Below the pieces are notes generated by a model. That model was not told the origin of the DNA and did not search any database. It worked only from the letters and a program-made list of their open reading frames with translations. Shown piece by piece: positions 684-13,700 of a stretch of DNA of 64,000 nt (the stretch's first letter is position 1; every line of letters starts with the position of its first letter). The stretch lies in NCBI GenBank assembly GCA_028285415.1, contig JANQPF010000008.1, positions 124,001 to 188,000 of the forward strand, given 5' to 3'. Origin of the DNA: Pseudomonadales bacterium. Its GTDB lineage: Bacteria; Pseudomonadota; Gammaproteobacteria; Pseudomonadales; Azotimanducaceae. Both the position numbers and the translations under genes were made by a program.

Positions 684-3470
684 TTACAGGTTCGCACTCA
701 GGCGAAGGAAGAAGTAACGACCAACCGGTGAGTACAGGAACAGGTCGGTGTTGTTACCCGAGCTGAACACGTACGGCGGGTCACGATCGAATACGTCGTT
801 GACGCCGAATACCGCGGTGTACTGATCCCAGTTGTAACGCACACGCATGTCCCACTCGGTGTGAGACGGTACGTCTTCGTAACCGAAGATGTTGGTGTCT
901 TCATCGAAGCTCGGATCGCTCATACCGTGGATGTAGCGACCGCGAACGATGAAGTCCCACTCGTTCCAGCTGACCTGGTTGTTCCAGATGCCTTTGATGC
1001 GCGGAATAGAGCCGCGATCGTCAGCACCGCCGGCACCCGGGAAGAACGTGTTTTCACGGACGTAGGTTGCCTGCAGCTCGGTGTTGAACAGAAGGTCGAA
1101 CGCTTCGAACTCGTACAGCAGACCCAGATCGTAACCGTCGGTCGTAACCTTGGTCAGGTTGGTCAGCTGGTTCGTGAAGTTCTGGAAGTTCAGACCTGCC
1201 GCGTTGACCACCGGCGTGAAGAGCGCACACTGCGGATCCGTGAGGCCAACCGCGCCATTGAAACAACCCTGCACAATCGAGTCAGACGTCGGACGGCTGA
1301 TCAAGCCTTCTACTTCGATATCCCAGTAGTCGACCGTCATCTGGAAACCTTCCAGGAAGCTCGGCGTGAATACGATACCGATGGTGGACGTATCCGCGGT
1401 TTCCGGTTCGAGGTTCGGGTTGCCACCGGCGAGAACCGCTGACTGCGCCGCAGCCAGAGGCGTGCCCAGCGGGATACCTGCGGCCGCACAGTTGGCGGCA
1501 GCATTGTCGACAGCGCCGGCCGCACACGGGTTGCTGAAGAAGTCGAAGCTGACCACACCGCCGCCGAAGAGGTCGGTGATCTGCGGCGCGCGGTAGGCGG
1601 TGCTCAAGGTGGCACGCACACGCACGTCGTCGATGATCTGCCAGTTGAGGCCAAAGCGCTCAACGGATTCTTCACCAAAGTTCGAGTAGTCGGAGTGACG
1701 GAACTGCAGGTTCAGGTCCAGATTCTGGAAACCCGGGGCATCTGCAAGCAGCGGAATGTCAATTTCCGCGAAGTACTCTTCCACGTCGAAGGAACCTTCG
1801 GTGGTGAATACCTGGTTGGCAACCGACTCACCCGCTTCGGTGATGGAGTCAGGCTTGGTGAAACCTTCGTCAGTGCGGGTTTCGAAACCGACAGCCATCT
1901 GTACTTCACCGGCCGGCAGCTCGAAGATCGGGCCTGACGCCACGCCGAAGAATCCAGTGGTCTGGAATTTCGCCTGTGCGGTCGCAACCTGACGCAGGTA
2001 AGCAATCTCAGCTTGCGTCCAGTTACCCGGACGAACTGCGTCGAGCGCACCGCTCGGGTTAACGGTCTGCGCACAGAGTGCGTCCTGAGCACATGCATCC
2101 GGATCGGAGATGCGCAGGAAGCGAGCCAGGTTCCACACTGCGTTGGTGGTCAGCGTCGCATCCAGACGGGTGTAGAGATACGACAGTTCCCAGGTCCAGT
2201 TGTTGAAGAAGCTTTCTTCGTTGATGATCTCACCGCGCAGCCCCGCCGTCAGACGGGTCGTGTTGACTTCGAAGTCAGACTGACGCGTGCCGATCGTGCT
2301 GGACGGACGGAAGTAGAAGAAGCCGCCTTCACCGGCTACCGGAACGTTCGGGTTGGTGCCCGGTACGTAAGAACCTGCTGGGAATGCCGGGGTACCGAAG
2401 GAACCCGGGTTACCGTCGAGGTTGCTGACGCCGGTACGCTTGGAGTACTGCGCTTCAACGAACGCTTCAATGCCGTCGAAGATCTCGTAGACGCCATAAC
2501 CGGCCGTGCTGTAGAGCTCAGACTGCGTGATCAGGTCCTGTTCCGCACCATAATCGTAACGCAGGAGCTGTACGGCGTCGGGGCTGGTCGGTGCCTGGCC
2601 CTGAGTGGACGGACAGCCTGCCGCACCCACGTTGGTGATCTCGTCACCGCCGAAGGCAACAGGAAGCGTACAGAAGAACGTACCGTTGTCGCCGAAGAAC
2701 GCACCGCCCGGGGAGAAGAAGCTGCCCTGGCTGATGCTGGTTGCACCAATACCGGAAACGGTCGGGAATGCCCAGTCGCGATCCCTCTGATTGATGTTGT
2801 TGTTGTAGCGATATTCCGCACCAACCATCACTGAACCGCGATCGCTGGTCGTACCAATAGCAAGGTCTGCGCTGTACTGCTCGCCGTCACCTTCGCTGGA
2901 AATGCCCGACTGAGCACCCGCCTGTACGCCTTCGAAACGCTCTTTCAAGATGACGTTAACCACGCCTGAAATTGCGTCTGAACCGTAAATGGCAGAAGCA
3001 CCGTCACGCAGGATGTCCACGCGGTCGATGAGAGCGGTCGGCACGAAGCTCAAGTCGACGGCCTGGTTAGACAGGGCATCGGCAAATGAAGCAACACGCT
3101 TGCCGTTGATCAGGATGAGCACGCGGCTCTGACCGAGGTTACGCAGGTCAACAGAACTTGCGCCGCCACCGGAGAGGATGCTCGACTGGTTGAAACCTGC
3201 GGTACCGGCAACAGCCTGGTTACGCAGCGCTTCACCAAGGTTGGTGAACCCTGATTCCACAATGGATTGGCCGCTGATGACGGTAATGGGGCTGGCTGAC
3301 GTAAAGTCAGAGCGCTTGATGCGCGAACCCGTTACTACCACCTCTTCTACGACTTCTCCTTCCTCTTCGTCTTCGGCAGCGAAAACGACTTGAGGTGCGG
3401 TGAGGGTAATCATAGCCAGCGCGAGTGCCTTAACTAGCGCACGCGCCCATATTGGCTGATCTACAGTCAT
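684..3470 (-). CDS. TonB-dependent outer-membrane receptor
   Basis: A 928-residue outer-membrane receptor. Residues 1-31 form a signal peptide (basic start, hydrophobic ALAMITL stretch, likely cut after VFA). A very acidic stretch (EDEEEGEVVEE) leads into a TonB box of the EEVVVTGSRIKR type. The plug domain follows (about 50-180, with the SILSGGGASSVDLRNLG and RVLILINGKRV blocks), then a long barrel ending in GRYFFLRLSANL. This box and the plug with INGKRV/DRVDILRDGASAIYGSDA are typical of the large receptor families expanded in oligotrophic Proteobacteria; the ligand is unknown. The ATG has a strong ribosome site (GGGGGA, 6 bases upstream). No ExbB/TonB or periplasmic binding genes are adjacent. 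A clear terminator follows. Confidence 0.93.
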   Translation of the reverse strand: MTVDQPIWARALVKALALAMITLTAPQVVFAAEDEEEGEVVEEVVVTGSRIKRSDFTSASPITVISGQSIVESGFTNLGEALRNQAVAGTAGFNQSSILSGGGASSVDLRNLGQSRVLILINGKRVASFADALSNQAVDLSFVPTALIDRVDILRDGASAIYGSDAISGVVNVILKERFEGVQAGAQSGISSEGDGEQYSADLAIGTTSDRGSVMVGAEYRYNNNINQRDRDWAFPTVSGIGATSISQGSFFSPGGAFFGDNGTFFCTLPVAFGGDEITNVGAAGCPSTQGQAPTSPDAVQLLRYDYGAEQDLITQSELYSTAGYGVYEIFDGIEAFVEAQYSKRTGVSNLDGNPGSFGTPAFPAGSYVPGTNPNVPVAGEGGFFYFRPSSTIGTRQSDFEVNTTRLTAGLRGEIINEESFFNNWTWELSYLYTRLDATLTTNAVWNLARFLRISDPDACAQDALCAQTVNPSGALDAVRPGNWTQAEIAYLRQVATAQAKFQTTGFFGVASGPIFELPAGEVQMAVGFETRTDEGFTKPDSITEAGESVANQVFTTEGSFDVEEYFAEIDIPLLADAPGFQNLDLNLQFRHSDYSNFGEESVERFGLNWQIIDDVRVRATLSTAYRAPQITDLFGGGVVSFDFFSNPCAAGAVDNAAANCAAAGIPLGTPLAAAQSAVLAGGNPNLEPETADTSTIGIVFTPSFLEGFQMTVDYWDIEVEGLISRPTSDSIVQGCFNGAVGLTDPQCALFTPVVNAAGLNFQNFTNQLTNLTKVTTDGYDLGLLYEFEAFDLLFNTELQATYVRENTFFPGAGGADDRGSIPRIKGIWNNQVSWNEWDFIVRGRYIHGMSDPSFDEDTNIFGYEDVPSHTEWDMRVRYNWDQYTAVFGVNDVFDRDPPYVFSSGNNTDLFLYSPVGRYFFLRLSANL

Positions 3471-10961: not shown

Positions 10962-11927
10962 TCAGCCGCCGATGAACTTCATGACGGTCACCTCGCCGCG
11001 GAAGCTCGCGAGCTGCTTGTCCTGCAGCGCCTGTCCCAGCACGTCCTGCAGCTTCACCATCGCAAGCGTATCCGGCAGACGCAGCACGTCGCGGAAGTCG
11101 TAGGACTTGGCATTGGACAGGCAGCCGAAGAGGCGCCCGTTGGAGGCCAGCCGCAGCCGTGTGCAGGTGCGGCAGAACGGTTCGCTCTCGTTGGCAATGA
11201 TGCCGAAAGTGCCTGCGCCGGGAATTTCGAACCGCGCTGCAGTCGAGTCGAACGGCGCATCCGTGCGGGCATACTCATAGCGGGTGCCGATGAGGTCGAG
11301 AATGTCGTCCATGCCGAAAAACTGGGCATCGAAGAGTGGATTATTCTGCAGATGGCCCATGCCCATGAGCTCAATGAAGCGCAGCTCAATCCCCCGTTCG
11401 AGGCAATAATCGAGGAGCGGCAGTATCTGATCGTCGTTGACGTGGCGCATCGGCACCATGTTCACCTTGAGACGGATGCCCGCCTCCCCCGCCAGGCGAA
11501 TCCCGTCGAGGACCGTGTCCAGGTCGCCCGAACGGGCGATGTCGCGAAACTTGTCGGCATCCAGCGTGTCCAGGCTGACGTTCATGCGTTCGAGCCCGGC
11601 CGCTGCAATGAGATCCATCTTGCGCGGCAGGAGCTGTCCGTTGGTGGTCAGCGATACGTCCGCCAGGCCCAGCTGCATGACAGCTGGCAGCAGCGCATCG
11701 AACTTGGGAGACAACAGTGGCTCACCGCCGGTGATGCGCAGCTTGTCGATACCTGCGGTGTCCATGAGGAGGCGCACGGCACGCACCATCTCGTCCGCCT
11801 CGAGCTCAGACGCCGCCGCCTGCAGGCGTTTGCCATCCGGCACGCAGTAGGTGCACGCGTAGTTGCACGCTGCGGTCAAACTCAAACGCAGGTTGCGGAA
11901 CTGACGGCCCAGATGGTCAACAATCAC
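10962..11927 (-). CDS. moaA: GTP 3',8-cyclase (molybdenum cofactor step 1)
   Basis: Radical SAM enzyme that, with MoaC, converts GTP to cyclic pyranopterin monophosphate. The GTG at 11927 is preferred over one at 12017: the protein then starts MIVDHLGRQFRNLRLSLTAAC as in the family, AGAGAGG lies 10 bases upstream, and the 30 extra residues are unlike MoaA. The radical-SAM triad CNYACTYC, the GGEPLL block, the C-terminal second cluster (CRTCTRLRL with a later GCL) and the conserved terminal GG are present. The other moa genes (moaC, moaD, moaE) are about 39 kb away near 51 kb, so the pathway is split. Confidence 0.94.
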   Translation of the reverse strand: MIVDHLGRQFRNLRLSLTAACNYACTYCVPDGKRLQAAASELEADEMVRAVRLLMDTAGIDKLRITGGEPLLSPKFDALLPAVMQLGLADVSLTTNGQLLPRKMDLIAAAGLERMNVSLDTLDADKFRDIARSGDLDTVLDGIRLAGEAGIRLKVNMVPMRHVNDDQILPLLDYCLERGIELRFIELMGMGHLQNNPLFDAQFFGMDDILDLIGTRYEYARTDAPFDSTAARFEIPGAGTFGIIANESEPFCRTCTRLRLASNGRLFGCLSNAKSYDFRDVLRLPDTLAMVKLQDVLGQALQDKQLASFRGEVTVMKFIGG

Positions 11928-12061
11928 CGGTCGAATGCCTCTCTGGCAAGGATCGAGAACGCGCGAGTATGGCGCAAATGCGCGCCAGAGCAACAGATTT
12001 TCGTTGCCGGCAGACACCAGGCGTAAAAAGTGACCCAGTTCCTGGTTGATTCCGTAATCTG

Positions 12062-12070
12062 TGCTTTACT
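12062..12070 (+). promoter_or_regulatory. Candidate extended -10 promoter of a small RNA
   Basis: TG-C-TTTACT matches an extended -10 (TGn plus 4 of 6 of TATAAT). Initiation 7 bases later would fall at about 12077, exactly where the first hairpin of the small RNA begins. No good -35 is seen at normal spacing. Confidence 0.45.
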
Positions 12071-12076
12071 TGAATC

Positions 12077-12203
12077 AAGTCGCTGCTCACGTCTCCCCCC
12101 CCCAACGAAGGCAGCGACTTCTTGAGGTGGTCAAAGCTGTCACAGCTCACCTCGTATGTGTGACTCCTAATGGTACTTGCCCGGTTCGTCCGGGCTTTTT
12201 TTT
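12077..12203 (+). ncRNA. Candidate structured small RNA with C-rich loop
   Basis: About 127 nt on the plus strand, between two minus-strand genes. Stem 1: AAGTCGCTGC (12077-12086) pairs perfectly with GCAGCGACTT (12111-12120) and presents a 24-nt loop containing nine consecutive C. Stem 2: GAGGTG (12124-12129) with CACCTC (12148-12153) encloses AGCTG/CAGCT. Stem 3: GCCCGG/CCGGGC (12179-12195) followed by eight T is a classical intrinsic terminator. No plus-strand gene precedes it for it to terminate. C-rich loops on small RNAs usually pair with G-rich ribosome sites, so a post-transcriptional regulator is the likely role. The family is not recognised. Confidence 0.72.
12179..12203 (+). terminator. 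Rho-independent terminator of the small RNA
   Basis: 6-bp GC stem GCCCGG/CCGGGC with a TTCGT loop and an uninterrupted run of eight T (12196-12203). Oriented to the plus strand only. Confidence 0.85.
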
Positions 12204-12252
12204 GCCTATTTTTCAGATTGTTACACGTGAAACATCATATTTAACATCAGTA

Positions 12253-13608
12253 TCAATCCGGCTGCCCTGCCAGACGCTGATTGAGCCGCGCAAAAAACTG
12301 CCGTGACCAGAAAACCCGGTTCGATCCCTTCACCAACACCGTACATTCACCGCTGATGGCGGCGCAGATCTCATCGAGCAATGCCGTGTCCGCCTCAGCA
12401 AACCAGGCGGCATCGGGCAGCGCCGCCGCGAGCGCCCGCATCCCTTCGCCAACGCAGAAGACGGCGTCCGTGTCCGTCAGCAGCGGTGCCAGATCCGCGT
12501 GGGCCTGCGCCGCTGCATCGCCGAGCTCGAGCATCTCTCCCAGCACGGCAATGCGGCGTCCCGGCCAGCTGGCGAGGGTGGTCAACGCCGCCGCCATGCT
12601 GTCCGGATTGGCGTTGTAGCTGTCATCAATCAGCCGCGCGGCCGGCGTGTCGACAATGTTGCCCCGTCCCGCCGGCACAAGATCCACCGGCAGATCGAGG
12701 GCTGCCTCGAGATCACGCTCACACAAATGGCAGACGAGGAGCGTCGCCGCCACCGTCAATGCCCGGTGCGCGCCGCCACCCGGCACGCGGGCATCGAACG
12801 TGCGCCCCTGGAACTCGAGCGTGGCACGATCTCCCGTCAACCCGGCCACACGCACGTCGGCACCGTCACCGAGGCCAAAACTCATGCCGCCGCTCAGCCC
12901 GAGGGTATCCTCGTAAATTGCTTTAGATTTATGATTCAAACCACTGAAAATAGAAACTTTTTCTTCTTTCAAAGCATCCCATGACGAAAAGTTTTCGATG
13001 TGCGCCCGGTGCACGTTGAGGAGCACCGCCACGTCCGGCATGACCATCCTTGCCAGCGGCTCGATCTCACCCGGATGATTGGTGCCAATTTCGAACACCG
13101 CCGCAGCCGCGCCTGCCGGTGCGTTCGCGAGCGACAGCGGCACCCCGATGTGGTTGTTGAAGCTGCCCGGAGGCGCATAGGCATCGAGCGCCGCGGCGAC
13201 GAAGTGTTTTGCCGTTGTCTTGCCGCTGCTCCCGGTAATCCCGATCACGTCACCCTCGAGTCGCTGCCGCGCGGCATGACCAAGTGCCCACAGCGCATCA
13301 TAGGTGTCGTCGACTTCAATCAGCGCAACCTCCGCCGCGACCACACGGTGCACAACGGCACCAGCGGCGCCCCGGCTGGCAGCATCCGCGACGAAGTCGT
13401 GACCGTCAATGTCCGAGCGATAGCTCGGGTTGAAGCGCGGACCCGGATCACCCGGCAACGCAATGAAGAGGTCGCCGCGAACGACCTGGCGGCTGTCGAC
13501 GGTCACGCCGCTCACGGCCGGGCCTGCCTGGGACCGGCCGGTGAGCGCACGTGTCAGCTCCGGCCATGACCAGAGGTCGCCGGCATCTCTGTGGTTGGAT
13601 TCAGACAT
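12253..13608 (-). CDS. murF: UDP-N-acetylmuramoyl-tripeptide--D-alanyl-D-alanine ligase
   Basis: Adds D-Ala-D-Ala to the peptidoglycan precursor in the cytosol, using ATP. 451 residues from the ATG at 13608 (an upstream in-frame start adds 13 residues without family resemblance). Mur ligase N-terminal domain (VSGVTVDSRQVVRGDLFIAL), ATP loop GITGSSGKTTAKHFV, the central NNHIGVPLSLA and EIGTNHPGEIE blocks and the C-terminal domain starting IDDSYNANPDSMAAAL all match MurF. Normally it sits in the mra/dcw division cluster between murE and mraY. Here it stands alone beside sppA, which is unusual; a second copy elsewhere cannot be excluded. Confidence 0.95.
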   Translation of the reverse strand: MSESNHRDAGDLWSWPELTRALTGRSQAGPAVSGVTVDSRQVVRGDLFIALPGDPGPRFNPSYRSDIDGHDFVADAASRGAAGAVVHRVVAAEVALIEVDDTYDALWALGHAARQRLEGDVIGITGSSGKTTAKHFVAAALDAYAPPGSFNNHIGVPLSLANAPAGAAAAVFEIGTNHPGEIEPLARMVMPDVAVLLNVHRAHIENFSSWDALKEEKVSIFSGLNHKSKAIYEDTLGLSGGMSFGLGDGADVRVAGLTGDRATLEFQGRTFDARVPGGGAHRALTVAATLLVCHLCERDLEAALDLPVDLVPAGRGNIVDTPAARLIDDSYNANPDSMAAALTTLASWPGRRIAVLGEMLELGDAAAQAHADLAPLLTDTDAVFCVGEGMRALAAALPDAAWFAEADTALLDEICAAISGECTVLVKGSNRVFWSRQFFARLNQRLAGQPD

Positions 13609-13700
13609 GACGCGATGGTAACTTTTTTGAGCGGGTTTCACCCTCAATTCACCGCAAAACGCGCTACTATCCCTACTCTTCTTCCCGGATTGAGGCTGTC

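Follow-up and report, generated by a model that had tools for sequence, protein, structure and literature searches.

The plus strand of the window, i.e., the whole 64,000-nucleotide stretch of DNA that was analysed, carries an RgsA-type small RNA (sRNA) gene of approximately 127 nt (positions 12077–12203). The gene is intergenic between moaA (10962–12017), encoding GTP 3′,8-cyclase, and murF (12253–13647), both of which lie on the minus strand, as the sequence-only reading of this DNA had stated. The extended −10, the start at 12077, the compound second hairpin, and the T8 terminator described in that reading are likewise all present on the plus strand. In stem-loop 1 (12077–12120; folding and covariation), positions 12077–12087 pair with 12110–12120 to form 11 pairs in the minimum free energy (MFE) structure, and the 22-nt apical part holds a run of nine C (C9; 12095–12103) and an inner helix CGU/ACG (12090–12092 with 12105–12107); the nine C had been described correctly, the stem and loop had been given as 10 bp and 24 nt, and the inner helix had not been mentioned. 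Stem-loop 2 (12124–12153; folding and alignments) is compound, and its sequence and size vary among relatives. It is followed by ACTCCTAATGGT (12163–12174), a nearly invariant unpaired core that is proposed as the seed region, and by an intrinsic terminator (12179–12203; GCCCGG-UUCGU-CCGGGC and U8), which comprises a stem of six G+C pairs (GCCCGG/CCGGGC; 12179–12195) and a T8 run (12196–12203), the latter being a probable Hfq 3′ site. The MFE of the sRNA is −46.0 kcal/mol, compared with −32.3 ± 3.3 kcal/mol for shuffled sequences (z −4.1; none of 200 shuffles was as stable). Assignment of the terminator to moaA or murF was rejected, because the T-run is 3′ of the stem on the plus strand only. 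In a pattern scan of 1.3 kb, one terminator was found and 0.9 were expected; the terminator alone therefore does not exceed chance, and the argument draws its strength from conservation.

The element is present in nine of 37 genomes of the genus by blastn, i.e., the genome under study and eight other members, and the relatives named here are Pseudomonadales genomes assembled from metagenomes. A covariance model (R1), for which eight of the genus sequences and no Pseudomonas sequence were used, recovered the same nine among 40 genus genomes with strong matches (E ≤ 1e-17); weak matches in small-genome members (G019, G229, G035, and G075) were not counted because none of the neighbouring genes was found beside them. 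The parts maintained in the genus are the −10 element (TG and ACT), the GTGA..GTTCCTGG box upstream of it, the loop CGUCUCCCCC, the core CUCCUAAUGGUA, and the terminator. In stem 1, five of nine pairs show double-sided changes and 95.8% of cells are paired in a plain MAFFT alignment (A3). Over the whole structure, A3 contains 10 double-changed pairs compared with 4.2 in shuffled alignments (1 of 500 was as high), and pairing falls from 88% to 50% or less when the partners are slid. In an alignment of 42 homologs (A4), 20 of 21 pairs carry double-sided changes, 99.6% of terminator cells are paired, and pairing again collapses upon sliding, although A4 was fitted to the structure and leans towards it. 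The core positions CTCCTAATGGT are 90–100% identical across these homologs. The compensatory changes that the sequence-only reading had proposed to look for in relatives are thus found in nine genus genomes, double-sided ones in stem 1 included, and the independent plus-strand transcript that it had postulated is strongly supported, at the level of sequence, by a conserved promoter box, three covarying stems, and a terminator kept in nine genomes.

RgsA of Pseudomonas, a stress-response RNA, is approximately 120 nt in length, requires RpoS, depends indirectly on GacA, and aids survival in H2O2 (PMC2375449). The covariance search against Rfam, also proposed earlier, matched RgsA (RF00628) at 12024–12193 with 19.2 bits at a relaxed threshold, in an alignment that includes ACUCCUAAUGGU and the CCCGG terminator. 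Because this score is far below the gathering cut-off of 88.4 bits, the locus is classed as an RgsA-type homolog and not as a member of RF00628 by the Rfam rule; at gathering thresholds, the only Rfam match in the whole window is one tRNA. Of the 194 genomes of the order that were scanned with RF00628, 66 had a match at E ≤ 0.1; the scores form a continuum from 192 down to 17 bits, and only nine genomes pass the Rfam cut-off. In the opposite direction, the best genome-wide matches of R1 in Pseudomonadaceae (f21) were obtained in G097 (E 5.8e-7), G130 (6.3e-6), and G158 (1.3e-5), all of which coincide with RF00628 loci above the cut-off, so that this RNA and Pseudomonas RgsA are genome-wide best and reciprocal best matches. 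Furthermore, R1 recovered all 30 RF00628 loci examined (L011–L040; E ≤ 0.0035 in 166 kb searched). A model built from all 42 homologs (R2) matched nothing outside the order at E ≤ 1e-4 in a class-wide sample of 369 genomes under stricter filters, and a plasmid similarity search returned terminator-sized matches only. The architecture of RgsA (P16) is present here in the same element order, i.e., a 5′ hairpin with a C-rich loop, a variable hairpin, the unpaired ACUCCUAAUGGUC core, and the CCCGG/U8 terminator, with A instead of C at the last base of the core; an RpoS-like −10, a single copy, and proximity to moaA are also shared. Unlike Pseudomonas RgsA, the RNA described here has neither the single ANGGA motif nor a terminator hairpin with a second C-rich loop, and its gene has another upstream box and is followed by murF instead of tatD/pilZ. 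On these grounds of sequence, the sRNA is a distant ortholog of RgsA, a known RNA that was previously unannotated here; its earlier description as unannotated holds at the curated Rfam cut-off only and gives way to the reciprocal covariance-model matches and gene order.

The promoter region is consistent with this assignment. The TG and ACT of the extended −10 TGCTTTACT (TG-C-TTTACT; 12062–12070), from which the transcription start is predicted at approximately 12077, are invariant in nine genus sequences. A sigma70 scan found no consensus −35/−10 pair at the sRNA promoter, and promoters of the extended −10 or RpoS type would not be expected to show one. The −10 region GCTTTACT matches seven of eight positions of KCTAYRCT, the reference consensus for RpoS-type −10 elements. 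The form given in the literature is (T/G)CTATACT (PMC2375449). Further upstream, a conserved box GTGACCCAGTTCCTGG with an A-rich flank (12026–12045; core 12030–12045) is a candidate activator or −35 region element; its GTGA and GTTC are invariant in nine genus sequences and its spacing to the −10 is fixed. The box possibly serves as a site for an activator.

RgsA of P. syringae is directly controlled by RpoS and interacts with Hfq (PMC3709562), and the 3′ end of RgsA shows an Hfq peak (PMC6890931). An Hfq gene is present in the genome under study, as are two sigma factors above the RpoS cut-off (G000:C11:77169-78005 and G000:C4:7979-8815); paired sigma factors above this cut-off also occur in G018, G025, G026, and G008. 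An RpoS-family sigma factor is encoded in seven of the nine genus genomes carrying the sRNA (the exceptions being G006 and G009) compared with none of the 31 without a strong sRNA match. The carriers also have larger genomes (4.0–6.0 Mb); phylogeny and genome size therefore confound this pattern, and shared ancestry may account for it. As a separate observation, the genus (g1) splits into large genomes with the sRNA and mostly with RpoS and small genomes (1.6–3.4 Mb) with neither, and may represent two distinct clades.

The preferred reading, to which we assign a probability of roughly 0.85, is that the RgsA ortholog acts in trans as an Hfq-dependent base-pairing sRNA. Its transcription would start from an extended −10 promoter belonging to the gene itself, probably with RpoS as the sigma factor during stationary phase or stress, and the transcript would end at the U8 terminator, the probable site of Hfq binding. 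The single-stranded ACUCCUAAUGGU, which contains an anti-Shine-Dalgarno CUCCU, would then block the translation of target mRNAs by pairing with their ribosome-binding sites, with help from the C-rich loop of stem 1.

The alternative closest to this reading differs in the segment that does the pairing. The sequence-only reading had regarded the nine-C loop as typical of sRNAs that pair with ribosome sites and had pointed to GGGGGA-type sites such as the one before the TonB receptor at 3470. The loop, as CUCCCCC(C)AA, is conserved throughout the RNA family, which makes a pairing role for it plausible on sequence grounds, and GUUGGGGG upstream of the TonB receptor start forms eight contiguous pairs with CCCCCAAC. 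However, this site ranks approximately 11th among 360 start regions, which is unexceptional, and the length of the C-run varies from 5 to 9 among relatives. Furthermore, a review describes repression of fis, acpP, and rpoS by RgsA and names nt 71–77 of the P. aeruginosa RNA as a conserved region required for fis and acpP repression (PMC9308961). In the RgsA sequences compared here, nt 71–77 fall inside ACUCCUAAUGGU or just a few bases away from it under most, not all, start assignments, and since the overlap depends on the start assignment we infer that the required region corresponds to the core. Judged by these sequence comparisons, the ACUCCUAAUGGU core is the stronger seed candidate, and use of the nine-C loop as the main seed appears rather unlikely. 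Among known sRNAs, ErsA of Pseudomonas also depends on Hfq and uses a C-rich loop for pairing with ribosome sites, but it is SigmaE-dependent and has another gene context; ErsA gave no match at the locus in the Rfam scan.

For the targets themselves, no convincing candidate was obtained among the 360 start regions with simple duplex energies, first-ATG gene starts, and no accessibility term. The targets published for RgsA are not plainly recovered here. No Fis ortholog is detected in the genome at E 1e-5. Pairing of the core with the acpP start region is at background level (rank 239 of 360; rank 39 for the C-loop), and acpP pairing is better in several relatives and in Pseudomonas. The exact complement of the core, CCATTAGGAG, occurs once outside the sRNA gene (C12:146651, approximately 47 nt before a start codon); as this is a single occurrence and the sequence is rarer than its reversed control, no target is claimed from it.

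A second alternative is that the RNA is an independent, lineage-specific sRNA whose resemblance to RgsA is convergent and limited to a loop rich in C, a stretch of anti-Shine-Dalgarno sequence, and a terminator rich in G+C. The RF00628 score of only 19.2 bits would allow for this, generic similarity of the terminator also yields weak matches to PrrF, SorX, JA04, and other families, and the GTGA-GTTCCTGG box is unlike the sequence upstream of Pseudomonas RgsA, whose upstream regulating sequence (URS) TATTCCAAATnCGTTTAAAA is absent at this locus. By contrast, those other weak Rfam matches cover the terminator part only or come from other clades, whereas the locus is the sole RgsA match in its own 6-Mb genome, the matches are reciprocal, and the 12-nt core is nearly invariant. 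Gene order adds to this. The order in the genus is moaA-sRNA-murF-sppA, and that in Pseudomonadaceae genomes with clear RgsA is pilZ-tatD-RgsA-aminotransferase-TetR-moaA or a subset thereof; the immediate neighbours differ (murF here vs. tatD), and the wider context is conserved, with moaA, a positional marker common to Pseudomonas RgsA loci, within 3 kb of the sRNA here and in all those Pseudomonadaceae loci except L143. Intermediate arrangements are found in another genus of the same family (L087: moaA-YiiX-like-sRNA-murF-sppA), in which the downstream neighbour murF is kept, and in families f8, f22, f29, and f35, in which a YiiX-like gene lies beside the sRNA, followed mostly by the aminotransferase and TetR genes. 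Because this chain of shared neighbourhoods runs through the intermediate families, an independent origin is unlikely, and convergence is regarded as improbable.

A 5′ leader, cis element, or short coding gene in place of a trans-acting sRNA is scarcely credible: ORF 12061–12306 (81 aa) is open in its own genome and a weak match to 6C RNA (RF01066), listed as cis-regulatory by Rfam, is found at 24.5 bits (cut-off 47 bits), but no plus-strand gene lies downstream, the terminator closes the unit, and the protein-coding reading of the ORF is rejected since shifts in C-run length (6, 7, and 9) and stop codons break the frames in relatives while the stems covary. The hairpin with a C-run in its loop is shared with 6C RNA, whereas the two-hairpin 6C layout is absent here. 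The 6C RNA is found in Actinobacteria, a phylum other than that of this genome.

The assignment as an RgsA ortholog extends this RNA family beyond the pseudomonads, to which RgsA is confined in the cited literature: much of the order Pseudomonadales has RNAs of the RgsA type, and a broader model would annotate the sRNA across it. The deep alignment indicates the parts that are kept by selection, i.e., the ACUCCUAAUGGU core, the C-rich loop, and the terminator. With this, it can be tested which segment serves for targeting in general and whether control of Fis and AcpP is ancestral or a feature of Pseudomonas. More speculatively, RgsA-type RNAs might be an ancient arm of the RpoS response throughout the order, with the RNA rewired in this lineage: its promoter box would be new, the Fis target and the second C-rich loop would have been lost, and the C9 loop would have lengthened so as to target GGGGG ribosome sites, that of a TonB receptor being an example; we consider this scenario doubtful.

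Two further features were observed close to the gene. A parS-like (ParB-binding) site TGTTACACGTGAAACA (12219–12234) is located 16 bp past the sRNA terminator and thus outside the RNA. Each of the nine genus genomes has it in this position, eight with the exact sequence and one with a single mismatch, and the RgsA loci of other families lack it; the genome under study has one further parS-like site, which lies near the origin in the interval from recF to gyrB (C24:217323). In addition, the otherwise GC-rich murF contains an A/T-rich patch with unusual codon use at 12900–13010 (AAATTGCTTTAGATTTATGATTCAAACC...).
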